Assembly: GCA_030710605.1 (NCBI GenBank)
Contig: CP092863.1
Coordinates: 64,022,438 to 64,086,437, forward strand
DNA from: Cordylochernes scorpioides
Lineage: Eukaryota; Arthropoda; Arachnida; Pseudoscorpiones; Chernetidae
Direction of reading: 5' to 3'
DNA: 64,000 bases
Below, piece by piece: positions 3,594 through 61,425 of this stretch. The position numbers and the translations under genes were made by a program. The notes beneath the pieces are model-generated. The model saw only the letters and a program-made list of their open reading frames with translations. It searched no databases and had not been told where the DNA came from. Position 1 is the stretch's first letter. Every line of letters begins with the position of its first letter.

Positions 3594-3988
3594 GCACATG
3601 TGCTCCTGGTCAGGATATGCCTTTTTTATTTTTAATATCAACACCTGACCTTTTTATTTTCTTCTATTATTTATTCATGCGTTAAGCGTATTTATGCAAT
3701 TTTGGCCTTGAATACTTTCTTAGTTTCTCAAGAAGCCTCTGGAACCAAAAATCTTTTTGGTTGCAGTGGTACAGCCTACTCCACGCTGACGAGCGCCAAC
3801 AGCGCGAAACGCGTTCGTGGATGGCTTTTCTTGATTTATCAAGAAATTGGGTTGGCCAAATATCAGGGAACAGGCTATATCAATGTTTAGTTGATTTCTG
3901 TTCCACTAGATGGCGCTCTGCCATCTGTAAAGCACTTTTGCTCCTGGTTAGGAGATGCCTTTTTATTTTTAATATCAACACCTGACCC
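3594..3988 (+). repeat. Hammerhead-bearing repeat, family A, with direct-repeat tails
   Basis: Body about 3657-3988 carries a hammerhead-like core at 3780-3821 and short inverted motifs such as CTTGATTTATCAAG. The tail (CTCCTGGTYAGGAKATGCC plus T-rich stretch and TCAACACCTGACC) occurs twice in the same direction, at about 3600-3656 and 3945-3988, so the unit looks like part of a head-to-tail dimer. Other family A copies are at 11061, 26085, 39655, 46440, 52345 and 60995. Confidence 0.7.
3780..3821 (+). ncRNA. Hammerhead ribozyme-like motif (family A)
   Basis: Stem I TCCACG (3780-3785) pairs with CGTGGA (3816-3821). Then come core CTGACGA (3786-3792), stem II GCGC-CAACA-GCGC (3793-3805), GAAA (3806-3809), a minimal stem III closed by A3809-U3814 with loop CGCG, and the cleavage-site U3815. 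All conserved catalytic positions of a type I hammerhead are present; the cleavage triplet would be GUU. Stem III of one or two pairs is typical of hammerheads in Penelope-like elements, which often need dimers. Activity is inferred, not shown. Confidence 0.7.
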
Positions 3989-4027
3989 ACTTATTATTTT
4001 TTTCTATTGTTTTTTTCATGTGTAAAT

Positions 4028-4051
4028 ATGTCTCTCTCTCTCTCTCTCTTA
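4028..4051. repeat. (TC)n microsatellite
   Basis: About twelve TC dinucleotides, absent at the mirror position in the right arm, where the flanks otherwise match. Confidence 0.9.
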
Positions 4052-4239
4052 CTATAAATATTGTACTTGATTCAAAATAAGTGTGTGAGAGCTAGTTAGT
4101 GTTGTCTTTGTTGTTAGATAGACCTCAGTCAAGAGTAGAAAGACGCCATATAGAGAAAGGTCCCGAGACCTGAAGAAGTTTAGGACGTCTAGGTGAAGCA
4201 GAGCCTGGGTGTAGACACGCTTTACGTGACACTAGGATT

Positions 4240-4432
4240 GATTGATTCGATTCCAAAATCACTTTATTTGGTACCGCTCAACAAGAGCAACCTAGTTTAT
4301 GATAATTGAAACAGTGAATAATATGTGAAGGTTATTCACATATTAAACAAAATGTTAACGCAGGATTCAATCCCGGTTCATGACTGTCGGGAATCGAGGG
4401 TGTTACCCACTTGTCCACCGACTTATTATTAT
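4240..4432 (-). mobile_element. SINE-B: tRNA-derived element, left-arm copy
   Basis: On the minus strand it starts with a tRNA-like head carrying an A-box-like TGGACAAGTGGGT and a B-box-like GGGATTGAATCC. A non-tRNA body ends near the GGTACC-AAATAAAGTGATTTT sequence. The cloverleaf is imperfect, so this is a SINE or tRNA-derived pseudogene and not a tRNA gene. The mirror copy is at 10637-10830. Confidence 0.6.
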
Positions 4433-4554
4433 TTATAGGTTGATTGAAGCTTTAATTCTAATATATCAGCATCTCTACGAACCATCACCTGATAACTTAA
4501 ACTAACCTAACCTTTTCAAGAATAATCAATCAAGGATAAATTTCTTTCAGGCTT

Positions 4555-4680
4555 TTTTCGCCCTTCCACAGATGAATCTTAAATATAAGAGTACCTGTTA
4601 GCAATTCATCAATGGACGCTGTTATATTTAAAATTTCTCCTGTGAAAGGACGAAAGATTATTTTCTTTCTTTACTCCTGT
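4555..4680. repeat. Small fold-back repeat
   Basis: TTCGCCCTTCCACAG near 4558 is an imperfect inverted match to CTGTGAAAGGACGAA near 4640-4655, and the interiors are also complementary. It is mirrored at about 10395-10512. A GAAA follows the second arm hairpin as in the hammerhead families, but the CUGANGA part is not clear. Confidence 0.5.
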
Positions 4681-4736
4681 AATTATTATTTTTTTAAAAG
4701 AAGCTACGCATCAAAAAATATTTCAACCTTCTTATA

Positions 4737-4805
4737 CAAAACCTCCATGAGAGGACACTCACGCTAGAGAACACTTCTCAACAAAGGACAGTTTTCATTA
4801 GCAAA
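4737..4805. mobile_element. Tigger-like MITE remnant (type T1)
   Basis: Matches the left half of the T1 MITE seen at 38054 and elsewhere: AAAACCTCCATGAGAGGACA, then ACAAAGGACAGTTTTCATT. Only one end is left. The mirror remnant is at about 10255-10330. Confidence 0.55.
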
Positions 4806-5012
4806 ATGAACATTCATGTTTAAATGCTTCCATTTATTATCTATAGATGGCACGTAATCTCCATATAGTAATTTCGTGCCCGAAATATTTGTGAATTTAA
4901 ATGTTTTAAAAGAAACTTATATCCCCGCGGAAGCCTGATTTTACATCTTAATTATAGTAGTAAAAATACAGAGACCTTTAAAAATAAATATTACCATAGG
5001 ACAACTATAATT

Positions 5013-5335
5013 AAAGATGGGAATCGGTGAAAGAGAGAGAGATAGGATAGTGTAAACCATTGGTTTTCGACCGTGACGACACGGGATTGAATCCTGCATT
5101 GGGCACTTTTTTATGATAAAAAAAAAAAAATGCTCCAATGGTCACCGATTCTTGGAAAAGTTCAACCTCACCAGCGAGTGCAAGTAACAAAACGGGGCTT
5201 TGGCATATTTGTATGTGCAAAGTCAAACTGCTTTTCACTTGTGTAGACATGTGGTGCGCTTACAGTAAAAGCAGTTGCCTACTTCTACCCACCATGATTA
5301 TCATGGCCTGTACCACGTGTACTAGGGATAATTAA
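5013..5335 (+). mobile_element. SINE-A: tRNA-derived SINE, left-arm copy
   Basis: tRNA-like head about 5020-5108 with B-box-like GGGATTGAATCCTGC, a T/A-rich linker, then the ~200-bp body starting ATGCTCCAATGG and ending CACGTGTACTAGGGATAA. The head is divergent around the A box. The same body occurs at 8238, 9437 (minus), 38578, 40540, 47285 (minus) and 59565, so it is a dispersed family. Confidence 0.75.
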
Positions 5336-5361
5336 AACAAAAAAGACATGTGGTGCACTTA

Positions 5362-5461
5362 NNNNNNNNNNNNNNNNNNNNNNNNNNNNNNNNNNNNNNN
5401 NNNNNNNNNNNNNNNNNNNNNNNNNNNNNNNNNNNNNNNNNNNNNNNNNNNNNNNNNNNNN
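5362..5461. other. Assembly gap (100 N)
   Basis: Exactly 100 N, usually a placeholder for unknown size. It sits just inside the left arm of the inverted duplication and inside SINE-A-like sequence, so the orientation of 1-5361 relative to the rest rests on scaffolding. Confidence 1.
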
Positions 5462-6102
5462 CTTTTTTAAATAAACTTATTTGATGCCTTTTGACTCAGA
5501 GATTAAAGTTTTTGAAAAGATACTTTTTCCTGAAGGTCTGATATTTTTTACTCAATATTGAAACAAGGGATTATTTTTTTTTTATCTTCTTAGTGAGATC
5601 TTTGATAAGCTCTTCCATTTTCAATTCATAATGATTTTCATCATGGAAGACTGTTAGTCATATCTTGGAAGCTTCTTTTGCATACACACATAGCATATTG
5701 TCGTATTCAGTCATAATGAGAAATTACATAGAAACATCTTAAAGTCTTTTGAAACAAGTCTTCATACATATACTTCTATAGGTTTTTAATCAAATATCTT
5801 CTTGTACCATGTCCTGAATACCATTATGAGTAATGGTCGAAGGATAATGGTTGTCTCTATTACCTTAATTCTATGGGACAGCCTCTTGTTCTAAACAAAT
5901 TTGCATAGATGAGAATCTTCATGTTGATCTAGTGTCATCAAAAAAGTAAGAGGAATCTCTTGATCTTTAACTCTTTTAATCTCTAAACTAGATAGTGTTG
6001 AACTATTGCAAGTTTATACATGTGTGCGCTTTCATACTTTGTATTCTATGATATGAATGGAATACCTATGTTTAATACATGAATAGATTATATTGTAATA
6101 TT
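5462..6102. other. AT-rich spacer without recognised features
   Basis: No ORF of note, no tandem array and no terminal repeats that I can see. Confidence 0.4.
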
Positions 6103-7268: not shown

Positions 7269-7556
7269 TGCACCTTATCCCAGTACAATATCACATTTTT
7301 ACTATTTTTTCACATTGTCCATATATAGTTGTTTTTAGTTTTTGTGTATGCTCTTTATTGGAAAATGAGTGCCGTTGCAATGTTAGTCACCTTGGACCAG
7401 AATTTGGTCAAATATTCCAAGAGTCCAGGGGGAACTGGTGTGGTCAGATTTCACCTTTTCCTCCCCCCCCCCCCCCCTTTTTTTCTAATTTAAACAGAAA
7501 ACATATATGTATGTGTGATACGCGCGTCTCTCTTTATATAATTAAATCTATATATA

Positions 7557-7926
7557 GATGGAAATTTTGCCGGGAGGATATTGATCTAAAGAGGCAAAGT
7601 TCGCCTCTCCCGTCAAAATAGACGTTTAAAACCAGACGCCATCTATTGACTGTCGCCGCAAACTAGCGGCCTCGGGTCGGTAACAAAGCCACAACACCAG
7701 CTTTGGTAAACTGAAAATCGTCCACCTAGAGACCATGGCTTGGCTGACGAGGGCCATTAGCCCGAAACCATGGTCTCTAGGTGGACACTTTTCAGTTTGC
7801 CAAAGCTGGTGTTGTGGCTTTGTCACCGACCCGAGGCCGCTAGTTTGCGGCAACGGTCAATAGATGGCGTCTGGTTTTAGACGTCTATTTTGACGGGAGA
7901 GGCGACCTTTGTCTCTTTAAATCTAT
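7557..7926. repeat. Fold-back element, family D, full copy
   Basis: Arms of about 150 bp (7591-7738 and 7768-7915) are near-perfect inverted copies ending in GGCGACCTTTGTCTCTTTA and its mirror. The short loop contains the hammerhead-like core at 7738-7781. Other copies are 14527-14781, a centre-deleted copy at 47036-47236 and a fragment at 22476-22535. Confidence 0.85.
7738..7781 (+). ncRNA. Hammerhead-like core at the fold-back tip (family D)
   Basis: CTGACGA (7744-7750), stem II GGGC-CATTA-GCCC (7751-7763), GAAA (7764-7767), stem III ACC/GGT (7767-7769 with 7772-7774), C7775 as cleavage base (GUC), then TCTAGG. The 5' strand of stem I is GCTTGG, not CCTAGA, so stem I is weakened; the core itself is intact. 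In the full RNA the 19-bp outer stem would compete with it. Confidence 0.5.
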
Positions 7927-7963
7927 ATACTTCTTAGAGAGAGAATTAGAGATACTTCGATCA

Positions 7964-8141
7964 GTAAATATTTTTATTATCTCAACGTTTGGACAAAATC
8001 TTTTGTAAGGAACATTCTGAGAACGCCTTTGCAATTTTAGAATAAATTTTAATTATTTTCAATTGCTTTAATTTTTATTTGTTCCAGACGAAGACAAAAG
8101 ATCCTTGTCGAAATGTCAAGATAATAAAAAAAGATTTACTG
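7964..8141. repeat. Fold-back element, family E, copy 1
   Basis: Inverted arms (TTTTTATTATCTCAACG at about 7969 against its complement near 8120-8137). The right arm reads AGACGAAGACAAAAGATCCTTG then TCGAAATGTC, a degenerate hammerhead-like core with T4 changed to A. Confidence 0.6.
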
Positions 8142-8237
8142 GCAGAAATATCTTTAATTCTAAGAATCATGGATGGCGGCCAGGCAGCCTCTATATTTAC
8201 GATAAAGTTATATAGTTTCACATTTTGAAAAAAAAAT

Positions 8238-8432: not shown

Positions 8433-8555
8433 GCAAAAAAAAAAAAACATTTTGCGTCAAATTCTTTTTTTTTTTTTTATCCAAAACGAAAAAGATGAAT
8501 TTTCGAAAAATCTTCTTACAATACAATAGTTCTTTGGATTAAAGATACTTTGGCC

Positions 8556-8734
8556 TGTAAATCTTTTTATTATCTCGACGTTTCGACAAATATCTTTTGT
8601 CAGGGACATTCTGAAAATGCTATTTCAACCTTAGAATAATTTTTAATGCTTTGCCAATTGCTTTAAGTTTTATTTGTTCCTTACGAAGACAAAAATTTCT
8701 TGTCGAATTGTCAAGATAATAAAAATATTTACTT
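8556..8734. repeat. Fold-back element, family E, copy 2
   Basis: Arms TTTTTATTATCTCGACG (about 8564) and its complement near 8712-8728. The left arm on the minus strand reads CTGACAA, hairpin, GAAACGTC, a hammerhead-like order with G8 changed to A. Copies 1 and 2 lie 590 bp apart in the same order, suggesting a local duplication. Confidence 0.6.
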
Positions 8735-11060: not shown

Positions 11061-11455
11061 GGGTCAGGTGTTGATATTAAAAATAAAAAGGCATATCCTG
11101 ACCAGGAGCAAAAGTGCTTTACAGAAGGCAGAGCGCCATCTAGTGGAACAGAAATCAACTAAACATTGATATAGCCTGTTCCCTGATATTTGGCCAACCC
11201 AATTTCTTGATAAATCAAGAAAAGCCATCCACGAACGCGTTTCGCGCTGTTGGCGCTCGTCAGCGTGGAGTAGGCTGTACCACTGCAACCAAAAAGATTT
11301 TTGGTTCCAGAGGCTTCTTGAGAAACTAAGAAAGTATTCAAGGCCAAAATTGCATAAATACGCTTAACGCATGAATAAATAATAGAAGAAAATAAAAAGG
11401 TCAGGTGTTGATATTAAAAATAAAAAAGGCATATCCTGACCAGGAGCACATGTGC
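11061..11455 (-). repeat. Hammerhead-bearing repeat, family A, mirror copy
   Basis: Exact mirror in organisation of 3594-3988, including two direct-repeat tails (about 11075-11105 and 11400-11450). Confidence 0.75.
11228..11269 (-). ncRNA. Hammerhead ribozyme-like motif (family A, mirror copy)
   Basis: On the minus strand identical to 3780-3821: TCCACG/CGTGGA stem I, CTGACGA, GCGC-CAACA-GCGC, GAAA, CGCG loop, UU. It is not independent evidence, because the whole arm is duplicated. Confidence 0.65.
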
Positions 11456-13485: not shown

Positions 13486-13499
13486 CTTTATATATATAT

Positions 13500-14526: not shown

Positions 14527-14781
14527 CTAAAAAGACAACAGTCGCCTCTCCCTTCAAAACTAGTCCGCCCTAGACTGACAAGGGCCATTATCCCGAAACC
14601 ACGGTCTCTAGGTGGACGCTTTTCAGTTTGCCAAAGCTGGTGTTGTGGCTTTGTTACCGAATTAAGGCCGCTAGTTTACGGCGACGTCAATAGATGGCGT
14701 CTAGTTTTGACGTTTATTTTGATGGGAGAGGCGACTTTCGTCTTTTTAGATCAATATCCTCCCGGTAAAATTTCCATTTAG
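14527..14781 (+). repeat. Family D element with hammerhead, single-arm copy
   Basis: Ends with the family D terminus (GAGAGGCGACTTTCGTCTTTT, then AATATCCTCCCGG). The left arm is reduced to about 40 bp, leaving one long arm and the complete hammerhead-like core at 14569-14612. Confidence 0.75.
14569..14612 (+). ncRNA. Hammerhead ribozyme-like motif (family D)
   Basis: Stem I CCTAGA (14569-14574) pairs perfectly with TCTAGG (14607-14612). Core CTGACAA (14575-14581) has A where the catalytic G8 is expected. Stem II is GGG/CCC with loop CCATTAT (14582-14594), then GAAA (14595-14598), stem III ACC/GGT (14598-14600 with 14603-14605) and C14606 as cleavage base, giving the classic GUC. The fold is convincing; the G8 change would probably abolish or strongly reduce activity. 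Confidence 0.65.
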
Positions 14782-15099: not shown

Positions 15100-15215
15100 G
15101 ATTTAAAAGGTATACACCGATAAAATTAATTGCAAGAAATTTATTTTATTGAATAAAATAAAACGGCAAGCTTTCAAGCGTTAGCTCATCATCAGGCCAA
15201 TTATTTCGCAAATTT
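15100..15215 (-). repeat. Family F repeat with hammerhead-like core
   Basis: Minus strand near 15163-15205: stem I GGC/GCC, CTGATGA, one extra T, hairpin GAGC-TAAC-GCTT, GAAA, GCTT. All core residues are present, with a one-base bulge before stem II. Only one copy of this family was recognised. Confidence 0.45.
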
Positions 15216-15479
15216 CTACAATATATATGGAGGTGTGGTAGGTATTTTTGCATATTTACACTTGAAAAAGTTTTAAAATTCTCTCTGAGAAATGCTTTAA
15301 ATATATATATATCCTAAAAATCCTTTACATATAGTAAAAAGACATATATTGGAGCTCCTGGAGCTAATGAATGTAAATATCCGTTGTTGTTGGCGTTAGG
15401 ATGTAAATAAATGTAAATGCCCGTTAAATGATATTTGAGTTCTTGTGTAAAGATAACATTAGAAGGAGAAGGAGTGTTA

Positions 15480-15750
15480 GAAGTCTAGGTGCCGGTTGCT
15501 GTTGTTACCCTCGCCAACATCACAGTCGCTACTGTACTCCATGTTAGGAGCAGCTGCACATGGCATCTGTTCCTCATGTCAGAGGCGGCTATTTCTTTTG
15601 GAGCTAAGCCGGCCTGCCACTGAGTAGTGCTCCCAGTCTTAATGACAAAGGCAGACGCATTCTACTTCACTCAGTCATGATTGTTGTCAAGCTTTACAAG
15701 CTTGATACCCTAATATGATTGAGTGGAGATAAGAAAGAAGAAGACAGTCG
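15480..15750 (+). mobile_element. Non-LTR retrotransposon 3' end with (GAA)n-like tail
   Basis: Shares GTACTCCATGTTAGGAGC, CTCATGTCAGAGGCGGC, CACTGAGTAGTGCTCCCAG and the terminal TGATTGAGTGGAGATAAGAA with copies at 38825 (minus), 40655 (minus), 49325, 54717 (minus), 56104 (minus) and 59850. Fixed 3' ends, variable 5' ends and a GAA-rich tail are typical of 5'-truncated non-LTR elements. Confidence 0.6.
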
Positions 15751-16459: not shown

Positions 16460-17446
16460 TTGTCCACAATGGTAAAGCAGACAAAAGATGGTATTACGGC
16501 CTTGAGGGATATCAATAATCAGGACTTTTTAGATCAGCTTTCTGTGCAAGTGTCTGATGTCCTAGATCAAAAACTGGACAAATCCAAGGGAGAATTCAAG
16601 ACACTGAGGCCCTCTTTTTCAGAGGTTGTGAAAACTCAAACAACGAGAGATACAATAAATAAATAAATAAATTAGTGAAAAAGAATTTGTAATTATAGCG
16701 CAGCCTTTTAATGAGGGAAATAATCAAGATGTACACCACGCTATTGTTAATAAGATCAGAGTGTTAGGAGAGGAAAATAAGAAAGTTCGAGTCAATAAAA
16801 TTATAAACACTAAAAAATCTATTATTATAAAAATGTCGACGAGCGCGAATCTAATTTTCTAAAAGAGGAAATATGCAAATCAACTCAGCTAACAAATATA
16901 TGCAAAACATTTATTCCGACCAAAAGAGATCCGACGATAATGGTTAAAAATGTTAATAAAATCACCGAGGTAAATTCCTTCGAAGAAACAATCTGTCAGA
17001 TGAACGACGAACTAAGGGATATGAAAAGTGAAATTAAGGTATTATTCAGCACTAATCTAACACCCCTACTCACAATATAGTTTTACGGGTTTCTCCTAGG
17101 GTTTATCAAACCATTAGGAAATTAAATAATAAAATCTACACTGATTGTGAACGCTGCGTTGTTGTAGATAAGATTTTTGTGAAACAATGCCAGAAATGTC
17201 TTAAATTTAATCCCTCTCACAAAATGGCAGAATGCCCTAACACCCCAATGTGCCGAATATGTGGAGTTCAGGGAGTTCATGATTGCTCAGGAATTCCCAA
17301 GTGTTTTAATTGCTCTCAACATCCTAAGTATAGAAACAAGCCCTTATCACACAGAGCAAATTCGGAGGAATGCCCTATGTATAAGGCACAAATAGACAGA
17401 ATAATCGAAAGAACAAGTTATTTCCCAACTGAACAATCAGGCAACT
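16460..17446 (+). pseudogene. ORF1 (gag-like, zinc-knuckle) of R1-like element
   Basis: An open piece at 16460-16666 starts at an ATG and stops. Coding similarity continues in other frames, with breaks near 16670 and 16840 and an in-frame stop near 17080. The last open piece, 17179-17446, encodes three cysteine/histidine knuckles: C-x2-C-x6-H-x4-C (CQKC...HKMAEC), CRIC...HDC and CFNC...HRANSEEC. Such knuckles bind the element RNA in the ribonucleoprotein. At least two frameshifts and a stop inactivate it. It ends 28 bp before the ORF2 start. Confidence 0.8.
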
Positions 17447-17473
17447 AACTCATACGAGTCAGGAAAGGATAAA

Positions 17474-20400: not shown

Positions 20401-20518
20401 GGAAAACATCGAATACAATGATCTTTTTATGTTTGTAAATAGTAAGGACTCGTATTTTAAATTTAGAAAATTCTGTAAATATATCTATGATTTTCTCTCT
20501 TGGTTAAAAAAACCTTAA
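17474..20518 (+). pseudogene. ORF2 (endonuclease-reverse transcriptase) of R1-like element
   Basis: Starts at ATG 17474. The first open piece (17474-18457) is the APE-like endonuclease: QEPY near residue 38, GDFNSRHPVW, and the C-terminal SDHA. The frame changes near 18450 and again near 18610. The reverse transcriptase (about 18612-19653) has SYRPISLLS, FDNAWW, GCPQGSPLSPLLWN and the catalytic YADD at 19492-19503. Another shift near 19640 leads to the thumb and C-terminal region (19628-20518) with a CLCG...HLLLEC zinc motif. Total length of about 1000 residues is normal for the clade. It would nick the target and prime reverse transcription; three frameshifts make this copy inactive. Confidence 0.9.
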
Positions 20519-25687: not shown

Positions 25688-25732
25688 ATATTTAATTTTT
25701 TTTTTAAATAGAGCCATCCATAAATATTTAAT

Positions 25733-25948
25733 TAAAAAGGCATATACTCGTATCGGATCAAAATATTTATTTTACCAATATTTCAGTTGGTTTAACGCCA
25801 ACCTTTATCAAGGTGTTATAACATTTTAAGTTAGTTGTTGACACACTTTAAAATGTTATAACACCTTGATAAAGGTTGGTGTTCAGCCAACTGAAATATT
25901 GGTAAAATAAATATTTTGATCCAATATATGCCTTTTTAATTAAATATT
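25733..25948. repeat. Fold-back element, family B, complete copy
   Basis: Arms of about 95 bp start ATTAAAAAGGCATATACTCG and end at the inverted TATGCCTTTTTAATTAAA. Each arm has a degenerate hammerhead-like core (see 25862-25904). Other copies: 28030-33402 (split by the Gypsy element), 37377-37475 (one arm) and 56690-56930. Confidence 0.85.
25862..25904 (+). ncRNA. Degenerate hammerhead-like motif (family B)
   Basis: CACC/GGTA stem I, TTGATAA in place of CTGATGA (C3 to T, G8 to A), one extra A, hairpin GGTTGGY-GTTCA-GCCAACT, GAAA, TATT. The order and spacing match the hammerheads in families A and D, but two catalytic positions are changed, so activity is unlikely. The opposite arm (25773-25815, minus) has the same form. 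Confidence 0.4.
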
Positions 25949-26084
25949 TAAATTAGAATAATTAAAATTTATATATCGAAAAATAACATTAAAGTGTAAA
26001 AAAAATATTTATTTGTGATGACTGAAGATTTATTCATGCAATAGAAGAAACTATTGTATAGTTTATTTAATTAATATCATATAT

Positions 26085-26460
26085 TAAAATCAAAAAAGGC
26101 CTATCCTGACACCGCTCATATGAGCATTTTAGATGGCAGAGCGCCATCTAGTGGAACAAAAATAAACTAAACGTTTATTTAACTTTTTCCGTGATATTTG
26201 GCCAACCCAATTTCTTAATAAATCAAGAGATTGATACGCCAACCACGTAAGCGTTTCGGGACCAAATTTTGGTCGTAGATGTACAATCTGCCACTCTGAA
26301 GAGGGCCAACAGCCCTAAACGCGTACGTGATTGGCTTTTCTTGATTTATCAAGAAATTGGGTTGGCCAAATATCATGAAACAAGTTAAATAAACGTTTAG
26401 TTGATTTTTGTTCCACTAGATGACGTTCTGAAATCTAAAATGTTCTAGTAAGCGCGGTCA
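26085..26460. repeat. Fold-back element, family A, inverted-dimer copy
   Basis: Both arms contain GGCAGAGCGCCATCTAGTGG or its complement and TTGGCCAACCCAATTTCTT. The right arm has a hammerhead-like core at 26291-26330 (CCACT, CTGAAGA, GGGC-CAACA-GCCC, TAAA, CGCGUA, CGTGA), degraded at G12 and stem I. The left arm keeps only the GAAACGC...CGTGG half on the minus strand. Confidence 0.75.
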
Positions 26461-31187: not shown

Positions 31188-31192
31188 CAGAT

Positions 31193-38824: not shown

Positions 38825-39151
38825 TCTTCTTCTTTCTTATCTCTACTCAATCATATTAGGGTATTGGGTGAAGTAGAATGCGTCTGCCTTTGTCATTAAG
38901 ACTGGGAGCACTACTCAGTGGCAGGCCGACTTAGCTACAAAAGAAATGGCCTCCTCTGACATGAGGAACAGATGCCATGTGCAGCCGCTCCTAAAATGGA
39001 GTACAAATGCTGCTCATCCTGTATCCCTGGATTAGGAGCCCTTACAGGGTACTATCAGCCGGGCCAGCTGAGCCCAGGTTTTTTAGTGAGCTTGTTACTG
39101 CTTCCCCTCCTCCTTTTTCATCCAGGCTTGGGACCGGCAAAGGCGGAGTTG
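38825..39151 (-). mobile_element. Non-LTR 3' end (GAA-tail family), minus strand
   Basis: On the minus strand it runs from TGCCGGTCCCAAGCC to the TGATTGAGTAGAGATAAG tail. About 325 bp. It lacks the AAGCTTTACAAGCTTGATAC segment of the longer copies, so it is internally deleted. Confidence 0.65.
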
Positions 39152-39255
39152 GACCAAATCTATATAAATAGTGTGTGGCATTTCAGTAACAACACTGTTA
39201 TCCAAATGTCACACACTATTTATTCAGATTTGGTCTTATTACCTTGTGTTTATAA
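39148..39255. repeat. Fold-back element, family C
   Basis: Arms ACCAAATCTATATAAATAG... and ...CTATTTATTCAGATTTGGT around GTGTGTGGCATTTCAGTAAC. Short copy with the centre deleted. Confidence 0.75.
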
Positions 39256-39654: not shown

Positions 39655-40020
39655 AAAAAATGCATCTCCTTATCGAGCAACTGAAAGTTGCTGATGGCTT
39701 GCACCATCATTTGTACTATTTTTTTCACATTAATTCACATTCTCACACAATTCTGGCCTTAACTACCCATTTCATGGTTTTTCAAGATGCCTGAATGACC
39801 AGTTTTTGGTCGTTGAGGTACAGCTTGCACCACGCTGATGAGAGCCAACAGCCCGAAACGTGTATGTGGTTAGCTTTTCTTGATTAATCAAGAATGGGTA
39901 TTTGGCCAATTCTGGAATAATTAAAAATCAACGAATAGTTGATATTTATTCCAATAGATGGTGAAAGCCATCATCAACTTTAAGTTGCCCGATAAGGAGA
40001 TGTCTTTTTTCTTTTCTTTT
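39655..40020 (+). repeat. Fold-back element, family A, with hammerhead
   Basis: Outer arms ATGCATCTCCTTATCGAGCA and the inverted CGATAAGGAGATGTC. One hammerhead-like core at 39829-39870 on the plus strand. Confidence 0.8.
39829..39870 (+). ncRNA. Hammerhead ribozyme-like motif (family A)
   Basis: Stem I ACCACG (39829-39834) pairs with TGTGGT (39865-39870), one G-U. CTGATGA (39835-39841) is the full consensus core. Stem II GAGC-CAACA-GCCC (39842-39854) has one mismatch. GAAA is at 39855-39858, stem III is A39858-U39863 around CGTG, and cleavage base is A39864. Only the stem II mismatch is unfavourable. Confidence 0.7.
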
Positions 40021-41151: not shown

Positions 41152-41350
41152 ACTACAAGAAAATAAGACCAAATAATTTATTAGTGTGTGATGTTTTGGC
41201 AACAGCATTGTCACCATGATCAGACAAAAGAATAAATTATTTTTATTCTTTTGTCTGATGATGGTGACAATGCTGTTACCCAAACGTCACACACTAATAA
41301 ATTATTTGGTCTTATTTTCTTGTATTATAATCTATAATTGTGCTTTATCA
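41152..41350. repeat. Fold-back element, family C, long perfect arms
   Basis: Arms of about 90 bp: CAAGAAAATAAGACCAAATA and inverted ATTTGGTCTTATTTTCTTG, tip TTTGTCTGATGATGGTGACA. The hammerhead-like order (CTGATGA, T, GGTGACA/TGTTACC, then CAAA) has GAAA changed to CAAA. Confidence 0.85.
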
Positions 41351-41885: not shown

Positions 41886-42236
41886 GAAAAAAAAAAACAC
41901 ATTTCCACTAAATTTAATTGTTACAAACTCCTATTGTTATAGACTCTATTATTGAAGTCTAACAGCTAAATTCAGGTCCTATATGCTTTCGTTGTCCATT
42001 GTTTGAAGAAAGCCTTACTTAGTGTCAAACTCAAGGTAATATTAACAAAGTTACCTTTAGAAGAAGAAAAGCCAAATGAAGCTAATGTGTAAGACACTGT
42101 CTAGATTCTGTCTGAGACAAAGGGAAAGGAATGATTGAAGAAAAGTTCATGCATACAATACTTATATAAGCTTAGAATAATTAGTATTTTATATACTTTC
42201 ATAGAAAAACTTGAGAAAATTTCATATTTGATGTAA

Positions 42237-42459
42237 TGATAAAGCACAATTTGGATTATAGATTAGAGATACAAGAAAATAAGACCTAAACCAAATAATA
42301 TAATAGTGTGTGACATTTCGGTAATAGCATTGTTACCATCATTAGACAAAAAAATTAATGTTACATGTATTCTTTTGTCTGAAGATGGTAACAACACTGT
42401 TACCAAAATGTCACACACTATAAAATTATTTGGATTTGGTCTTATTTTCTTGTATCTAT
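42237..42459. repeat. Fold-back element, family C
   Basis: ATAAAGCACAATTTGGATTA and the inverted ATTTGGTCTTATTTTCTTG; tips carry TCTGAAGATGGTAACAAC...GTTACC-AAAA (GAAA lost). Confidence 0.8.
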
Positions 42460-43991: not shown

Positions 43992-44142
43992 TATCTTGGT
44001 ATAAAGCCATTTTATCATTTATTTTATAAATCTCTAGCTTTCGGACACAAAAACCCTTCTACAGGAGAAACATTTTGATATTGAACTAAGGGATAACTTT
44101 TTTTGGAACAAGTACAATAATACGTCAAATTACTTTTGATTA

Positions 44143-44272
44143 TGATAAGGCACACAATTAGGATTATAGATTATAAACACAAGGTAATAAGACCAAATCC
44201 AAATTAATAAATAGTGTGTATAACCCCAACAACTATTTATTTATTTGGATTTGGTCTTATTACCTTGTGTTT
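44143..44272. repeat. Fold-back element, family C, centre deleted
   Basis: ATAAGACCAAATCCAAATTA and inverted ATTTGGATTTGGTCTTATT with only about 30 bp between arms; no ribozyme core is left. Confidence 0.75.
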
Positions 44273-44503
44273 ACTTCTGATTTTTAGAAAAAATTCTAAA
44301 GAACTTGAAAAAGTGAATAAAATAAATAACAAGCGATTATTTTTTTGAACAAGTATGTAAATACACCAAATTACTTCTGATTATTACAAAACATTCTAAA
44401 GGACTTGGAAAAAATTAATAAAATACCGAAATTTGTAAAATGTCAAATATTAATTGGCACCTTACATGAGATACAATTAACTATATAATAATATATATAC
44501 TCT

Positions 44504-45167: not shown

Positions 45168-45509
45168 ATACCTCAAATTTGTGTTGAAACCAGTTAAAAT
45201 TAAAAAAATATATATAAATTCATACTATTCCAGCCAATAAGAGCAAATTTATAATAGTTGCATATCAATAGGAGGCATATTTGGGTTATGCAACTTAGAC
45301 ACTTATGACCATACCATATTCCAACACTGTGGATAAGAGTGGCATCTTATGGGTTCTTTTTTTTTTTCAAACAAAAGAATGGTCCTCTCTATGAATCAAC
45401 CTTTCTTCAAATATTTATAATGTCTCAGGGGAAAATAAACCTGGGGAACCTTTTTGAGGTCAGGACTTCCAAATATAAAACTTGGGGTAGAAGATCTTGA
45501 GACCTCCAG

Positions 45510-46355
45510 TGACTTACTTGTTTCATGATCTGGGGCCCTCTGTCACCAGTGACTTACTTGTTCAATGATCTGGGGGTCTTCTGCCACTGGTAACTTACTT
45601 GTACCATGATCTGGGGGTCTTCTGTCATCAGTAACTTACTTATTCCATGATCTGGGGGTCTTCTGTCATCAGTAACTTACTTATTCCATGATCTGGGGGT
45701 CTTCTGTCATCAGTAACTTACTTATTCCATGATCTGGGGGTCTTCTGTCATCAGTAACTTACTTGTTCCATGATCTGGGGGTCTTCTGTCATCAGTAACT
45801 TATTTGTTCCATGATCTGGGGGCATTCTTCCACCAGTGACTTACTTGTTCCATGATCTGGGGGCATTCTGCCACCAGTGACTTACTTGTTCCATGATCTG
45901 GGGGCATTCTGCCACCAGTAACTTACTTGTTCCATGATCTGGGGGTCTTCTGTCATCAGTAATTTACTTGTTCCATGATCTGGGGGTCTTCTGTCATCAG
46001 TAACTTGTTCCATGATCTAGGGGTCTTCTGTCATCAGTAACTTACTTGTTCCATGATCTGGGGGTCTTCTGTCATCAGTAACTTACTTATTCCATGATCT
46101 GGGGGTCTTCTGTCATCAGTAACTTACTTGTTCCATGATCTGGGGGTCTTCTGTCATCAGTAACTTACTTATTCCATGATCTAGGGGTCTTCTGTCATCA
46201 GTAACTTACTGTTCCATGATCTGGGCTCTTCTGTCTTCTGTCATCAGTAACTTACTTGTTCCAATAATGGGGGGCTTCTGTCACCGGTAACTTACTTGTT
46301 CCATGATCTGGGGGGCTTCTGTCACCGGTAACTTACTTGTTCCATGATCTGGGGG
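45510..46355. repeat. 41-bp minisatellite (about 20 copies)
   Basis: Unit CATGATCTGGGGGTCTTCTG + TCATCAGTAACTTACTTGTTC. Variants GGGGGCATTCTGCCACCAG and GGGGGGCTTCTGTCACCGG cluster in sub-blocks, showing local expansion. Confidence 0.95.
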
Positions 46356-46439
46356 TTGTCAATGTGTGACCTTGTATAAAACTAAGATAAAAATGTGAAA
46401 AAGTAGTAAAAATTTGGAATTGTACTGGGATAAGGTGCA

Positions 46440-46920
46440 TAAATTGTGAAAAAGGCATCTCCTTATCGTGCAACTGAAAGTTGCTGATGGCTTGCGCCAT
46501 CTATCGGAATAAATTTCAACTATTCTGTTATTTATTATTAGAAATCAATGAGAATAGTTGATATTTATTCCGATTGATGGCACAAGCCATCAGCAACTTT
46601 CAGTTGCACGATAAGGAGAGATTCCTTTTTCATAATCAACTATTCTGTTGATTTCTAATTATTACAGAATTGTCTAAATACCCATTCTTTATTAATCAAG
46701 AAAAGCTAACCACATATGTGTTTCGGGCTGTTGGCACTTGTCAGTGTGGTGCAGACTGTACTTCAACAACCAATAAATTGGTCATTCAGACATCCTGAAA
46801 AATCATGAAACGGGTAGTTAAGGCCAGAAGTGCTTGAGAATTCGGAACAATGTGAAAATAACAGCACAAATGTGATATTGTACTGGGATATAAGGTAAAT
46901 AAATTAAGAAAATGGCATCT
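46440..46920. repeat. Family A composite fold-back
   Basis: 46450-46630 is a hairpin of two family A ends (GCATCTCCTTATCGTGCAAC and inverse). It is followed by a stretch with the minus-strand hammerhead (46709-46750) and another family A terminus at 46905-46950. Confidence 0.75.
46709..46750 (-). ncRNA. Hammerhead ribozyme-like motif (family A)
   Basis: Minus strand: stem I ACCACA/TGTGGT, six perfect pairs. Core CTGACAA (A at the G8 position), stem II GTGC-CAACA-GCCC (one mismatch), GAAA, CACA loop closed by A-U, cleavage base A. The perfect stem I with different sequence from the copy at 3780 (TCCACG/CGTGGA) is a compensatory change and supports a selected or ancestral fold. Confidence 0.65.
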
Positions 46921-47857: not shown

Positions 47858-48122
47858 GTGTACAAGGTAATAAGACCATGTCTAAATAAATAAATAGTGT
47901 GCGACGTTTCTGTAACAACATTGTTATCATCTTCAGTCACAAAAGTACTGAATCAAATTACCATCTGATGATGGTAACAACACTGTTACCGAAAGGTCAC
48001 ACACTATTTATTTATTTGTATTTGGGGATCACGAGTTTTGGCATCTTTTTGAGATAAGAAAGAAGGATTTGGTCTTATTACCTTGTGTTTCTAATCTATA
48101 ATCCAAATTGTGCTTCATCAAT
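47858..48122. repeat. Fold-back element, family C, with inserted 40 bp
   Basis: Arms ATAGTGTGCGACGTTTCTGT and inverted GAAAGGTCACACACTATTTA. About 45 bp of unrelated sequence (48025-48068) interrupts the right outer arm. Confidence 0.8.
47965..48003 (+). ncRNA. Hammerhead-like motif (family C, best core)
   Basis: CTGATGA (47965-47971), one extra T, seven-bp hairpin GGTAACA-ACAC-TGTTACC (47973-47990), GAAA (47991-47994), GGTC, then ACACAC. All core bases are present and the cleavage triplet would be GUC. Stem I here is poor (CAT before the core against ACA). The one-base bulge between A9 and stem II is shared by families B, E and F. Confidence 0.4.
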
Positions 48123-48369
48123 TGTCCTTGAAAATTACAGAACCGGTATTGTTGTGAACCAGTATTGTTGTGTGTTAGGGCCAAGTAGGAAATATCAGCA
48201 TTTTGACAGATTGCTCTCTGGCCACAATCCAACCTGGTATTTTGGAAGACACAGTCAGCGGTTAATTGCTTTGTTTTTTGTTCAACCCGACTAACCTGCC
48301 AGTGTTTTGTGCTTCATATTTACTGGTAGCATTGGTTATATAGTGTAGAAACTCAGTATATTTCAACTG

Positions 48370-49330
48370 CTGTAATAGAGATGTATGGAGACATCTGAGG
48401 CTCTTCATTGGACACGACAACAACAACACAGGTACCTCTATACAACAACTTTACACACCCAAGATAGAGGACATTTCAAATGCTGTAATAGAGATGTATG
48501 GAGACATCTGAGGCTCTTCATTGGACACGACAACAACAACACAGGTACCTCTATACAACAACTTTACACACCCAAGATAGAGGACATTTCAAATGCTGTA
48601 ATAGAGATGTATGGAGACATCTGAGGCTCTTCATTGGACACAACAACACAGGTACCTCTATACAACAACTTTACACACCCAAGATAGAGGACATTTCAAA
48701 TGCTGTAATAGAGATGTATGGAGACATCTGAGGCTCTTCATTGGACACAACAACAACAACACAGGTACCTCTATACAACAACTTTACACACCCAAGATAG
48801 AGGACATTTCAAATGCTGTAATAGAGATGTATGGAGACATCTGAGGCTCTTCATTGGACACAACAACAACAACAACACAGGTACCTCTATACAACAACTT
48901 TACACACCCAAGATAGAGGACATTTCAAATGCTGTAATAGAGATGTATGGAGACATCTGAGGCTCTTCATTGGACACGACAACAACAACACAGGTACCTC
49001 TATACAACAACTTTACACACCCAAGATAGAGGACATTTCAAATGCTGTAATAGAGATGTATGGAGACATCTGAGGCTCTTCATTGGACACAACAACAACA
49101 ACACAGGTACCTCTATACAACAACTTTACACACCCAAGATAGAGAACATTTCAAATGCTGTAATAGAGATGTATGGAGACATCTGAGGCTCTTCATTGGA
49201 CACAACAACAACAACACAGGTACCTCTATACAACAGCTTTACACACCCAAGATAGAGGACATTTCAAATGCTGTAATAGAGATGTATGGAGACATCTGAG
49301 GCTCTTCATTGGACACAACAACAACAGCTC
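48370..49330 (+). repeat. 113-bp tandem array made of a non-LTR retrotransposon 3' end
   Basis: Nine units starting about every 113 bp (107-116), differing mainly in CAA-triplet number. Each unit encodes QLYTPKIEDISNAVIEMYGD-I-stop, the C-terminus of the non-LTR protein seen at 51127-51330, followed by its short 3' UTR and (CAA)n tail. So the array is a head-to-tail multiplication of one retrotransposon terminus. The chained short ORFs across the units are by-products. Confidence 0.9.
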
Positions 49331-52344: not shown

Positions 52345-52610
52345 AAGTAAAAAATAGTACAAATGTGATATTGTACTGGGATAAGGTGCATAAATTAAGA
52401 AAAAGGCATCTCCTTATCGTGTAACTGAAAGTTGCTGATGGTTTGCTCCATCTATTGGAATAAATATCAACTATTCTCGTTGATTTTTAATTATTACAGA
52501 ATTGGCCAAATACCCATTCTTGATTAATCAAGAAAAGCTAACCACATACGCATTTCGGGCTGTTGGCCCTCATCAGCGTGGTGCAAGCTGTACCTTACAG
52601 CACGAATCTT
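52345..52610 (-). repeat. Family A element with hammerhead, single arm
   Basis: GCATCTCCTTATCGTGTAAC at 52406, TCAACTATTCTCGTTGATTT, TTGATTAATCAAG and the hammerhead core at 52541-52582, ending at GCAAGCTGTACC. Confidence 0.75.
52541..52582 (-). ncRNA. Hammerhead ribozyme-like motif with full consensus core
   Basis: Minus strand: stem I ACCACG/TGTGGT (six pairs, one G-U), CTGATGA, stem II GGGC-CAACA-GCCC (four perfect pairs), GAAA, TGCG loop closed by A-U, cleavage base A. Every conserved hammerhead position is intact. It is the best candidate in the window for in vitro self-cleavage, probably as a dimer because of the one- or two-pair stem III. Confidence 0.75.
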
Positions 52611-55765: not shown

Positions 55766-55833
55766 AGATTAAGGAACTGTATCCTGAAAATAAGAGGTTG
55801 CCTGGCCGACATTCATATTTATTTTTTAAAAAT

Positions 55834-56075
55834 GGACACTCCGGCCAGTTAAAATGTCATTTTCATTGAAACATTTCAACAAAAATCTTTTGTCTTCGTC
55901 AGGAGAAATAAAAATAAAGCATTTGGCAAGGGCGTTAAAAATTGTTCTCTTTTTTAAACAATTTTTAAAACACCCTTGCCAAATGATTTATTTTTAATTC
56001 TCCTGACAAAGATTTTTGTTGAAGCGTTGAAAAAATGACCCTTTAACTGGCTGAAGTGTCTATTTTTTAAAAATA
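55834..56075. repeat. Fold-back element, family E
   Basis: Outer arms AATGGACACTCCGGCCAGTT and inverse AACTGGCTGAAGTGTC. Left arm, minus strand: CTCCTGACGAAGACAAAAGA, then TTGTTGAAATGTT, a hammerhead-like order with intact CTGACGA and GAAA but poor stem I. Confidence 0.75.
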
Positions 56076-56103: not shown

Positions 56104-56470
56104 TTTCTTCTTCTTTCTTATCTCCACTCAATCATATTAGGGTATCAAGCTTGTAAAGCTTGAAACCATCATGAATGGGTGAAGTATAATGCGTCTGCCT
56201 TTGTCATTAAGACTGGGAGCACTACTCAGTGGCAGGCCGACTTAGCTCCAAAAGAAATGGCCGCCTCTGACATGAGGAACAGACGCCATGTGCAGCCGCT
56301 CCTAACATGGAGTACAAACGCTGCGTATCCTGTATCCCTGGATCAGGAGCCCTTACATGGTACTATCAGCGGGGCCTGCTGAGCCCAGGTCTTTAACGAG
56401 CTTGTTACTTATCCCCCTCCTTCTTTTTCATCCGGGCTTGGGACCGGCAAAGGCGGAGTTCCAGGGTTGA
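56104..56470 (-). mobile_element. Non-LTR 3' end (GAA-tail family), longest minus copy
   Basis: From the TTCTTCTTTCTTATCTCCAC tail to CGGGCTTGGGACCGGCAAAG. A 67-codon + ORF across it is antisense and not supported. This copy retains AAGCTTGTAAAGCTTG, a short palindrome near the 3' end. Confidence 0.65.
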
Positions 56471-56689
56471 AACACCAAGTAGGCTGAAAATTTCATGGGT
56501 ATCACTATATCTGAACAAAATGTTCTATAAACATAATTTAAAAACTAGCTTCTTTTTCTAATTAAACTTTTTAATCATGCATCAGTGCAAACAAAGAGAG
56601 TGTCAAAGATAGATTTATATTTTTAAAATTCAATTGCCATCTATCGTTAAAATTTGTATTTTTAGGCGATGTATTTCTTTTCACATAAA

Positions 56690-56930
56690 TCTTTAAATAA
56701 AAAGGCATATATTGGATCAAAATATCATTTATTTTACCAATATTTCAGTTGGCTGAACACCAACCTTTATCAAGGTATTAGATTAATATAATATGTTATA
56801 ATACCTTGATAAAGATTGCCGTTCAGCCAACTGAAATATTGGTAAAATGAATGATATTTTGATCCAATATATGCCTTTTTATTTAAAGATTTATTTATGG
56901 ATTGCTTTATTTTCAAAACGATATCAAATC
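56690..56930. repeat. Fold-back element, family B, complete copy
   Basis: AAAAGGCATATATTGGATCA and inverted TGATCCAATATATGCCTTTTT. Both arms carry the TTGATAA...GAAATATT degenerate core; in the right arm the hairpin reads AGATTGCCGTTCAGCCAACT. Confidence 0.85.
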
Positions 56931-59000: not shown

Positions 59001-59139
59001 CACGGCTGGTGAAACACGATTATTTTTAAAAAAATTTTTTCTTTTCAACAAGCATGTTATGTGTTTATGCACAGCATAAATAAGTGTGACTTTGGAATTA
59101 TGGATACCCAGCATCTCCAACATGTGATGAGACAAGGGC

Positions 59140-59260
59140 GGGGATGTAAGGCTCAGTTGGTTTATTTGGTGCAGTGCTGGACTTATGGTCCGGTCCAGGA
59201 AGGTCGTTAAGTTCTGGGTCTGTTCAGACCGGTTGTAGGAGGGGTTGGAGCATTTCTCAA
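59140..59260 (+). repeat. Possible tRNA-derived SINE head
   Basis: GGCTCAGTTGGTTTATTTGG resembles a tRNA A-box region, followed by TGCTGGACTTATGGTCC like an anticodon arm. The B box is not convincing. Confidence 0.3.
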
Positions 59261-59564
59261 TCGCTAGTTAAGAACTAAACAGGACGAAAATTAATTGATA
59301 ATGGGCACGTTGTATTCAACAAATTGCCACAAAATGGTGGTCAATGGTCAAATACAATTTATACCCCCCATCTCTCTGGTGCCATTTCTCTCTGATAACT
59401 TAAATAATTAAATTTTTAAAAAATAAACAAAAAATAAAATAATTTTTATTGGCCATGTGTACAATTGGTTGACTACTTGTTGATACACAACAATATATAG
59501 AACTTAGAAGCTATTATATTGAAGTTTCACTGGAGGCGCAACTAGGACCAAAGTGGGGGTCGGT

Positions 59565-59800
59565 GGAAGGATGGTATAAACTGTTGGTTTTCGACCACTA
59601 TGACCCGTGTTCAATTCCCATATTAGGCAATTTTTTTCTCAAAATGCTCCAATAGCCCCTGATTCTTGCAAAATTCCAACCCCACCAGCTCATGCAAGTA
59701 ACCAATTGGGGCTCTAGCACCTTTGTAAGTGCAAAGTCGAACTGCTTTTCACATGTGTAGACATGTGGTGTACTTACAGTAAAAGCAGTCGCTAACTATA
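59565..59800 (+). mobile_element. SINE-A, near full-length copy
   Basis: tRNA-like head with GGTCGGTGGAAGGATGGT (A-box side) and GTGTTCAATTCCC (B box), linker, then body ATGCTCCAATAGCCCCTGAT to AGCAGTCGCTAACTA. Confidence 0.75.
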
Positions 59801-59849
59801 AACCAATAAAGGTGGTATATTAAAAGGCGTACATGGTATACAGAAGGTA

Positions 59850-60392
59850 TATCTACCTTTGCCAGTCCCAAGCCCGGATGAAAAAGGAGGTAGGAGCAGT
59901 AACAAGCTCTCTAAAAAACTGAACACAGCTGGCTTGGCTGATAGTACCCTGTAAAGGCCATTCAGGGATACAGGATGAGCAGTTTCTGTAATTCATGTTA
60001 GGAGCGGCTGTACATAACATCTGTTCCTCATGTCAGAGGCGGCCATTTCATATTGGAGCTAATTCGACCTGCTACTGAGTAGTGCTCTCAGTCTTAATGA
60101 CAAAAGCAGATGTATTCTACTTCACCCAGTCATGATGGTTGTCAACTCTACTTTGATGAGCTCTACTCATCCCCGGCAAATACCATCAACAAGCTCTACA
60201 GGCTTGATACCCTGATATGATTGAGCAGAGATAAGAAAGAGGACTCATCCCCAGAAGACACCATCAACAAGCTCTACAAGCTTGATACCCTGATATGATT
60301 GAGCAGAAATAAGAAAGAGGACTCATCCCCAGAAGACACCATCAACAAGCTCTACAAGCTTTATACCCTGATATGATTGTTGAGTAAGAAAG
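59850..60392 (+). mobile_element. Non-LTR 3' end (GAA-tail family) with 66-bp tail triplication
   Basis: Starts TTGCCAGTCCCAAGCCCGG and includes GTTCCTCATGTCAGAGGCGG and CTACTGAGTAGTGCTCTCAG. The last part, CATCAACAAGCTCTACARGC with TGATATGATTGAGCAGAGAT, is repeated three times (about 60180, 60245, 60310; period about 65 bp). Confidence 0.7.
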
Positions 60393-60904
60393 AAGAAGAA
60401 ATTACAGTAGCTAGTGCATCCCTATTATGGTAAATCTTGATTTTTTTCTACCTTCTTGTTGATGCTGGTGTTGTTTTCAGTATGAGGTTGTCACCAACGA
60501 CACAACCCATCTCTCTTGTGATTCAACTTTTTAAACATTTTTCTATGAATAAGAAAACTCTGCATTGATTTTAAAAACCTTTCAGAAAGCCAACACACAT
60601 GTATAAACTTGCAAAAATAGACTAACTTTCTCTTAGTAGCAATGTGCTGCCATTAATATAGGTACTGTAGTTAGAGTTGTATAGTAGATCAATACTATAA
60701 CACACTATGGGCTGCTTCTCTGTAACCCATTTGGTGTTAACTAATTATTATAACCATCTAGTTAGGAGCCAAGTTTAGTTTGTGCGGTGCTACTAATCAA
60801 CACTATTGTTGGATGTTTTGAACCTCTTCCATCTAGCTGATGGTAGCCTCAGCCAGGTTACATGACAACTTTTAGCCACAATGTGTACCACATATATATA
60901 TGTA
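60393..60904. other. Spacer, no supported gene
   Basis: No domain-bearing ORF or repeat recognised. Confidence 0.4.
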
Positions 60905-60929
60905 TATAAGATCAAAGAACTTGCGCATA

Positions 60930-60994
60930 AAATTAAATCCAAAAGACAAAAAACCTCTGATTGCGAGAGGTTTTTTGTCTTTTGGATTTAATAT
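60930..60994. repeat. Perfect 27-bp hairpin
   Basis: ATTAAATCCAAAAGACAAAA plus AACCTCT pairs perfectly with its inverse across a 7-nt loop (GATTGCG). Likely a minimal fold-back element or MITE relic. Confidence 0.85.
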
Positions 60995-61425
60995 ATGTAT
61001 ATGGCATATCCTGACCAGGAGCACATGTGCTTTATAGAAGGCAGAGCTCCATCTGGTGGAACAGAAATCAACTTATCATTGATTTAGCCTGTTCCATGAT
61101 ATTTGGCCAACCCAATTTCTTGATAAATCAAGAAAAGCCATCCACGAACGCGTTTCGCACTTTTGGAGCTCGTCAGGATGGAGTAGGCTGTACTGCGACC
61201 AAAAAGATTTTTTGGTGCCAGTTGCTTCTTGAATAACCAAGAAATGGGTATTTAAGGCCAAACTTGATTCATCAAGAAATTGGTTTGGCCAAATATCAGG
61301 GAACAGGCTAAATCAATGTTTAGTTGATTTCTGTTCCACCAGATGGCGCTCTGCCTTCTGTAAAGCACATGTGCTCCTGGTCAGGATATGCCATTTTTAT
61401 TTTAGATTTCAACACCGGACTTTTT
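60995..61425. repeat. Fold-back element, family A, with degenerate hammerhead
   Basis: Arms GCATATCCTGACCAGGAGCA and the inverted TGCTCCTGGTCAGGATATGC. The left arm has a minus-strand core at 61142-61182: CTGACGA and GAAACGCG intact, stem II broken, stem I with a mismatch at its inner end. Confidence 0.85.

Follow-up and report, generated by a model that had tools for sequence, protein, structure and literature searches.

Head-to-head hammerhead elements in the pseudoscorpion Cordylochernes scorpioides support Penelope-like elements as movers of retrozyme-like repeats

Introduction

How do short repeats carrying a hammerhead-like ribozyme motif come to lie folded back on themselves, and what moves them? 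The question is raised by a 64,000-nucleotide stretch of the genome of the pseudoscorpion Cordylochernes scorpioides (GenBank assembly GCA_030710605.1, contig CP092863.1, positions 64,022,438 to 64,086,437 of the forward strand), hereafter the window, within which coordinates are counted from its first letter. An earlier note on this DNA had distinguished fold-back families A to F, and more weakly G and H, and proposed that they form a superfamily of ribozyme-bearing non-autonomous elements with covarying stems. A motif of the claimed order is indeed present at each of the places named for A to F; G and H had been given no coordinates. As argued below from their sequences, A and D are most likely short retroelements with a minimal type I hammerhead that would depend on Penelope-like elements (PLEs) for their movement, E probably represents the 3′ end region of a PLE of this genome, and the fold-backs look like insertion products, namely two head-to-head copies with one short and one long 3′ end, rather than the arms of miniature inverted-repeat transposable elements (MITEs).

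Two bodies of work frame the problem. Metazoan retrozymes without long terminal repeats are described in two reports (PMC7229834, PMC7761336) as GC-poor units of ~170-400 nt that occur in tandem and carry type I hammerheads; in the second of these, PLEs are considered candidate movers, although the repeats are said there to hold no motif that reveals the mover. The PLE protein of Anolis, PAc, acts on AT-rich DNA, of which it cuts both strands and extends them (Frangieh et al. 2024, PMC11167929). Its reverse transcriptase (RT) has two neighbouring internal start sites that bound the genomic “tail”, and this two-site priming on both strands contrasts with R2 and L1 (PMC11167929). For Penelope copies of the rotifer Adineta, the accessible text of Arkhipova et al. 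(2013, PMC3846280) describes inverted pseudo-long terminal repeats (pLTRs) with the tail on one of them, head-to-head order, and target duplications of 8-10 bp that are missing in some cases; self-priming is proposed there.

Results

The motif of families A and D runs from an outer stem I through a short internal loop to a 6-bp inner stem I, followed by CTGANGA, stem II, GAAA, UH and the returning strand of stem I. Stem II consists of 4 bp and a 5-nt loop (CAACA in A, CATTA in D), and what remains of stem III is 4 or 6 nt between GAAA and UH, pairing over only 1-2 bp, with the III-2 pair formed in 94 of the 98 cores compared below. A strict descriptor (CTGANGA, stem II, GAAA, 2-8 nt, UH and at least 5 of 6 stem I pairs) matched the window six times, compared with a mean of 0.01 in 100 dinucleotide shuffles, a control in which palindromic DNA is not modelled. 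Five matches belong to A (3786, 11263, 39835, 52576 and 61176); the sixth, in a U tract at 27576 (+), looks spurious and is regarded as chance. Stem pairing of A thus far exceeds that of shuffled DNA, a comparison that the earlier note had named as able to refute its proposal. Loosening the core to YTGANRA gave eight matches against a shuffle mean of 0.29, the additional ones being D2 at 14575 and A at 46744.

The copies differ in how well they have kept the motif. An A1-type hammerhead at 3773..3826 (+) joins AGCC/GGCT and TCCACG/CGTGGA in stem I to CTGACGA, stem II GCGC/GCGC, GAAA and U16.1-U17. The strict match at 11223..11276 (-) is a copy of it made by inverted segmental duplication, and had been overlooked in a list of A copies that was otherwise borne out; the duplication itself (2630-4988 and 12411-10078) is 93% identical, with one A element in each arm. 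A3-type hammerheads occupy 39822..39875 (+; ACCACG/TGTGGT, stem II with one mismatch), 46704..46757 (-; ACCACA/TGTGGT, found by the loose core only, its CTGACAA being changed at position 8) and 52536..52589 (-; stem II GGGC/GCCC, passing both the strict descriptor and the relaxed one introduced below). A further A hammerhead at 61136..61189 (-) has one mismatch each in stem I and stem II, and that at 26283..26336 (+; core at 26296) is decayed, with TAAA replacing GAAA. D1 retains a core at 7744..7786 (+), its own 5′ stem I strand having been lost at the inverted junction, and D2 at 14563..14617 (+) pairs GTCC/GGAC and CCTAGA/TCTAGG and has GTC ahead of the predicted cleavage point, with the same CTGACAA change at position 8. 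Because both window copies of D are damaged, the window holds no fully canonical D; the core CUGANGA...GAAA with UH is satisfied by A within the window and by D in copies elsewhere. Folds of two A loci (L095 and L030; labels of this kind denote copies taken from elsewhere in the genome) contain stem II and stem I with its internal loop at ordinary energies (z -0.67 and -0.90); the corresponding z values are -2.95 for D, -2.15 for E, -1.09 for B, -1.20 for C and -0.74 for F. By these features A and D are minimal type I hammerhead motifs, with predicted cleavage, in retrozyme-like elements.

Both families are abundant in the genome as a whole (2.62 Gb in 24 contigs), in which a motif search had been envisaged from the start. 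When up to 3 mismatches are allowed, the A1 core is found at 55,092 places (27489+27603), and with up to 2 the D core is found at 27,709 (13714+13995), the reversed-pattern control giving 0 for each; a pattern with stem II left free occurs at 43,306 places, its control at 1. For comparison of stems, 139 cores were extracted from the window and 113 loci (the GIY-YIG loci L114 and L115, described below, not being among them), and 41 of them, including five A/D copies of the window, were dropped for a truncated, foreign or junk 5′ part, leaving 98 cores, 65 of them distinct. Each of the 15 stem pairs is maintained in 88-97 of the 98, with a bias in stem II, which had been held fixed in the search that yielded many of the A loci. 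When the majority letters of A1 are set beside those of D, 7 of 14 pairs differ on both strands, and no pair differs on one side only or is broken; a rough chance figure for this, assuming equal letter likelihoods and aligning the outer stem with one gap, is 1e-7; between A1 and A3, 3 of 14 pairs change on both strands.

The arrangement of the copies was determined by mapping 86 loci (88 minus two duplicates) and the window onto an A unit of 349 nt (from L030) and a D unit of 319 nt (from L029). Adjacent segments of the same family lie head to head, that is (-,+), in 66 of 77 pairs, 48 of them outside and 18 inside 16 loci picked as close pairs or tandems. Such a pair is present in 57 of the 86 mapped loci and in 41 of the 70 unpicked ones. 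In 100-place genome lists of A and D cores, distinct neighbours within 1 kb are (-,+) in 20 cases, on the same strand in 12 and (+,-) in 0; seven (+,-) neighbours within 40 bp among A segments are perhaps separate insertions. Direct tandems also occur (L030:1004-1539, L029:1135-1980 and C1:5965536-5966911), including five A cores spaced 338 bp.

The outer ends of these elements cluster at two sites of the unit, m191 (short) and m238 (long) in A and ~m166-173 and m209 in D. Two different end sites are found in 73 of 81 scorable elements of families A to E: 22 of 25 in A and 28 of 29 in D (19/21 and 18/18 without the picked loci), 9 of 10 in B, 9 of 12 in C and 5 of 5 in E. The two arms of A and D end within 5 nt of each other in just 4 of 66 pairs, their lengths differ by a median of 115 nt, and even the number of units can differ, as in L029 (481 and 846 nt). 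Since direct tandems occur and the arms start and end at different places, the fold-back does not appear to be intrinsic to the ribozyme design, and the differences in arm ends and lengths favour two separate cDNAs over self-copying. By eye, a hairpin may surround the short start site in each of families A to E, but its longest stem, compared with 500 shuffles, is clear only for C (7 shuffles with one as long) and weak for A1 (37), and does not stand out for D (135), E (126) or B (363).

Within the window, the A element at 3591..4026 (+) is a direct partial tandem of the ~349-nt unit, with direct repeats of 49 and 43 nt at a spacing of 337-338. Head-to-head A elements lie at 26081..26440 (left end m191, the right match stopping at m145, no named site), at 61003..61457 (right arm to the long site m238, the left match stopping at m174, no named site) and, as a second element nearby, at 61469..61772 (short end m190, long end m237). 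D1, a head-to-head element at 7552..7911, ends at m209 and m166 and has the word TTAAATCTAT close to both ends.

The targets of A and D are rich in AT. The 15+15 flanking bases are 84% AT compared with 65% for the window, and (TA)4 adjoins an end in 47% of 64 elements compared with 1.2% of random window sites. Words shared between the two flanks occur in 34 of 64 elements (shuffled-flank mean 18.4, maximum 24), and words that are not pure TA in 17 of 64 (mean 5.6, maximum 12). Examples are GAGGTAACTTTG in L023, AAATATTTCT in L021 and the D1 word given above, and by eye GACCTTACTGC in L103 and GTCTTACAT in L102; their lengths vary. A and D thus display two adjacent 3′ starts, an inverted copy, and an AT-rich target with a short duplication.

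Turning to the templates, 130 of 201 A/D segments traverse the predicted cleavage site and 42 of 201 are longer than one unit, and there is no excess of 5′ ends at that site, where 1 of 185 segments of at least 60 nt starts within 4 nt (~5 expected if starts were uniform). Because segments traverse the site and rarely start there, the RNAs that served as templates were seemingly circles, or multimers left uncut, rather than linear units cut at the hammerhead.

A probable link to PLEs is provided by family E. A GIY-YIG profile search gave 146 matches among 150 candidates scored out of 17,015, with open frames of up to 828 amino acids, and on the 16 contigs scored for neighbours within 6 kb, 11 of 11 were (-,+). 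In one such locus, L114, an open frame with GIY-YIG near its start lies in inverted arms at 11-2638 and 3003-5601 (2.6 kb) that are 98% alike; its domain order resembles that of Naiad elements. In a second, L115, the end of a GIY-YIG open reading frame (ORF) is followed ~0.3 kb on the 3′ side by an E hammerhead, so that the E family has a coding relative. We infer that the GIY-YIG genes of L114 and L115 are Penelope-like, on the strength of their domain, the hammerhead and the pattern of insertion. A search of the window and the loci with the L114 frame for Penelope coding relics gave no hit with E below 0.2. At 319-349 nt, the A and D units are too short for an RT plus a GIY-YIG ORF, and hence A and D would be moved by a PLE rather than be PLEs themselves.

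The strict descriptor rejected B, C, E and F, and as E was nevertheless found 3′ of a GIY-YIG ORF, the rule was relaxed to a 3-bp inner stem, an internal loop, an outer stem, one bulge in stem II, and pairing of positions 3 and 8. This descriptor, written after B, C, E and F had been seen and thus post hoc, matched the window 11 times, where 200 shuffles averaged 0.05. Four of the matches belong to B, three to A, three to C (at 43499, 55650 and 61995) and one to F (15195). The relaxed rule misses A at 39835, 46744 and 61176, both window copies of D, all window copies of E, and C at 47965.

The E hammerhead, CTGACGAG-GACAAAAG...TTTGTC-GAAACGTC, occurs in L054, L076 (two), L083, L100 and L115, so that core, stem I and stem II are satisfied in L115 and five more copies outside the window, with an inner stem I of just 3 bp. 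On this pattern E is a predicted hammerhead family whose motif is linked to a GIY-YIG gene. The E hammerheads of the window are decayed. Its E copies lie head to head at 55793..56071 (one long and one short end; decayed cores at 55902(-) and 56003(+)), at 7944..8193 (short and long ends) and at 8526..8733 (right end at no named site).

Family B departs from the core at C3 and G8: under a pattern that permitted C/T and A/G, 10 of 10 matches have U3/A8, by which positions 3 and 8 still pair. Its head-to-head elements are at 25706..25950 (long and short ends; TTGATAA cores at 25811(-) and 25866(+)) and 56685..56917 (short and long ends; cores at 56773(-) and 56806(+), the latter passing the relaxed descriptor). 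Those of C are at 41155..41350 (short/long), 42234..42459 (long/short), 44142..44273 (long/short arms, in a match without the hammerhead region), 61907..62239 (short/long, with the core 61995(-) passing the relaxed descriptor) and 47862..48025, which includes the failing core at 47965 and has its right end at no named site. B and C share the insertion type of the other families and have altered hammerheads, which are plausibly either variants or decayed forms. The assignment of F as hammerhead-like is weak; it is a single fold at 15150..15216 (-), with a nearby palindrome of only 23 bp.

Several other features were recorded in and around these elements. The window contains LINE-like ORFs at 17056-20518 and a gypsy ORF at 31154-33079 that is 98% identical over 54% of its length to a Cordylochernes scorpioides protein. 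Two Twister-P1 motifs, at 39101-39155 (-; 42.3 bits) and 56413-56465 (-; 34.3 bits), fall short of the gathering score of 67.2; both lie at the edge of a repeat, a further copy of which (15533-15747) is upstream of the LINE-like ORFs, and truncated twisters at the 5′ end of RTE elements are mentioned in the available part of PMC7761336. Minisatellites occur at 642-1453 (57-bp unit), 45507-46356 (41-bp unit) and 48360-49326 (113-bp unit). A tRNA-family match of 53.3 bits, L010:2359-2429 (+), is close to a D element, and a scan of viral contigs gave 0 matches to the A core.

Discussion

Our studies favour, with reasonable confidence, an explanation in which A and D are retrozyme-like elements moved by PLEs, E is probably the 3′ region of a PLE, B and C share their type of insertion, and insertion proceeds by two-site priming on both strands. 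In this mechanism, the RT/GIY-YIG protein of a PLE would bind multimeric or circular element RNA. AT-rich DNA would then be cut on both strands with a stagger of ~6-12 bp, in keeping with the target composition and the shared flank words, and from each cut 3′ end reverse transcription would begin at a fixed internal site, the two DNA ends using two different sites; the ends are observed, and this is their supposed cause. Reverse transcription would proceed upstream, often past the hammerhead and sometimes through more than one round of the unit, as the segment lengths show, and the two outward-pointing cDNAs would be joined at variable points to yield the head-to-head fold-back that is observed. 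Hammerhead cleavage presumably makes unit RNAs that are then circularised, or is idle during insertion. A more specific version, to which we hold only tentatively, is that every insertion is one concerted event of a PLE RT/endonuclease dimer, each subunit cutting one strand and using a different start site of the circular or multimeric element RNA, whereby one cDNA with a long end and one with a short end would come to lie back to back. If so, animal retrozymes would parasitise a two-start mechanism, of which the fold-back would be the regular product.

A number of observations weigh against this explanation. No RT domain was found in L114, in which Pfam recognizes GIY-YIG only, or in 801 bases of L115, and no helper of A or D was found, the A and D units matching L114 and L115 only by short AT-rich stretches. 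In bulk, the start sites of PAc are alike on both strands, and its insertion continues with hammerhead mutants (PMC11167929). A scan against Rfam at gathering score gave no match: the best library match of A, Hammerhead_HH9 (RF02275), reaches 27.9 bits at 3770-3835 and yet lies under the gathering score of 52, and in the sources scanned no Rfam hammerhead family matched B, C, D or E. The stem changes that the earlier note quoted as covariation are real in the letters, but a tree-simulated test on the 98 cores, akin to the R-scape test that the note had proposed, gave no significant pair (the best structural pair, II-2, had E ~1.4), probably because most changes fall on few deep branches. The sampling also bears on the counts: A/D loci were fetched via intact cores and not at random, end bins were taken from the observed end distributions, and the shared flank words are in half of the cases (TA)n, which is uninformative. 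Two like ends occur in 8 of the 81 scorable elements, a single array (L102) contributes, as its units, three of the 9 asymmetric C pairs, and pairs that were unscorable or cut amount to 9/34 in A, 3/32 in D, 1/11 in B, 7/19 in C and 2/7 in E, or 12/66 for A/D and 10/37 for B/C/E.

An alternative that deserves weight, though we think it unlikely, is that the hammerheads are relics without a role and that the RT-start region alone matters. The invariable U3/A8 of B, the broken state of several window copies, the templates that traverse the cleavage site and the insertion of PAc without cleavage (PMC11167929) all fit this idea; against it, the majority stem changes among A1, A3 and D all preserve pairing. 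Improbable in our judgement is a single primed cDNA that copies itself by self-priming, from a snap-back or an antisense template, the route suggested for Penelope copies in rotifers. The head-to-head order and the palindromes at the junctions resemble those in the accessible text of PMC3846280, but self-priming predicts the same end on both arms, which was seen within 5 nt in 4 of 66 pairs, the extra piece of the long arm cannot derive from the short arm, and the unit number can differ between arms. Of about the same standing, if anything slightly less probable, is movement of A and D by a LINE, with the E link coincidental. The window does contain LINE-like ORFs, and LINEs or PLEs are named as candidate movers of animal retrozymes in the available part of PMC7229834; two internal start sites with priming on both strands are, however, reported for a PLE and are unlike R2 and L1 (PMC11167929), and E, 3′ of a GIY-YIG ORF, shows the same end pattern. 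Derivation from plain MITEs, that is, from DNA transposons with terminal inverted repeats whose hammerhead-like motifs would be chance or decoration, is very improbable, despite the strong palindromes, short length, AT-rich sequence and (TA)n-rich targets that the elements share with MITEs, because a fixed extra piece distinguishes the ends in 73 of 81 elements, A/D ends rarely coincide, junctions vary, direct tandems occur, shared flank words vary in length, A hammerheads far exceed shuffles with double-sided stem changes, and neither matching terminal inverted repeats nor a target duplication of fixed length is found.

Retrozyme-like elements moved by PLEs would combine features of several known systems. 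A and D resemble the metazoan retrozymes of Cervera and de la Pena (2020) in unit length, type I hammerhead, tandem copies and low GC; tandem units within 170-400 nt (349 and 319 nt) are present. They differ from those retrozymes in forming head-to-head fold-backs, in 57 of 86 loci, with a short and a long end, and in the near absence of stem III. Minimal type I hammerheads of PLEs and Terminons were reportedly described by Cervera and de la Pena in 2014 and by Luense et al. in 2017. The hammerheads of the pseudoscorpion are like these in core, in type I topology and in a stem III near zero, with E also lying 3′ of a GIY-YIG ORF, and unlike them in that A and D are free-standing short units and B has a U3/A8 core. 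PAc (PMC11167929) and Adineta Penelope, as far as the available text of PMC3846280 goes, jointly provide the two RT-start sites, extension of both strands, AT-rich targets, inverted pLTRs and short duplications, whereas the A and D units are too short for such an RT and GIY-YIG ORF, and it is in the present 81 elements that the rule of one end of each kind was counted. Comparable hammerhead fold-backs were not found described in the open-access literature, which reaches key papers only in part.

The superfamily proposed in the earlier note can be kept as a shared mode of insertion (head to head, with a short and a long end and, for A and D, AT-rich targets) and not as shared sequence. Ribozyme-bearing non-autonomous elements is a fitting description of A and D, given their cores, genome counts and stem changes; the E family has a coding relative.

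Taken together, the findings support the idea that Penelope elements move the retrozyme-like elements of animals, perhaps using a separate start site for each DNA strand. Fixed two-site ends on very many copies offer a sequence signature of a PLE mover, one not reported in the available parts of the retrozyme papers. If B cleaves, its U3/A8 core would be a natural test of the 3-8 pair. The rule of one start site per DNA end makes a poorly known step of PLE insertion testable, both in genomes and with purified protein of the kind used for PAc (PMC11167929).

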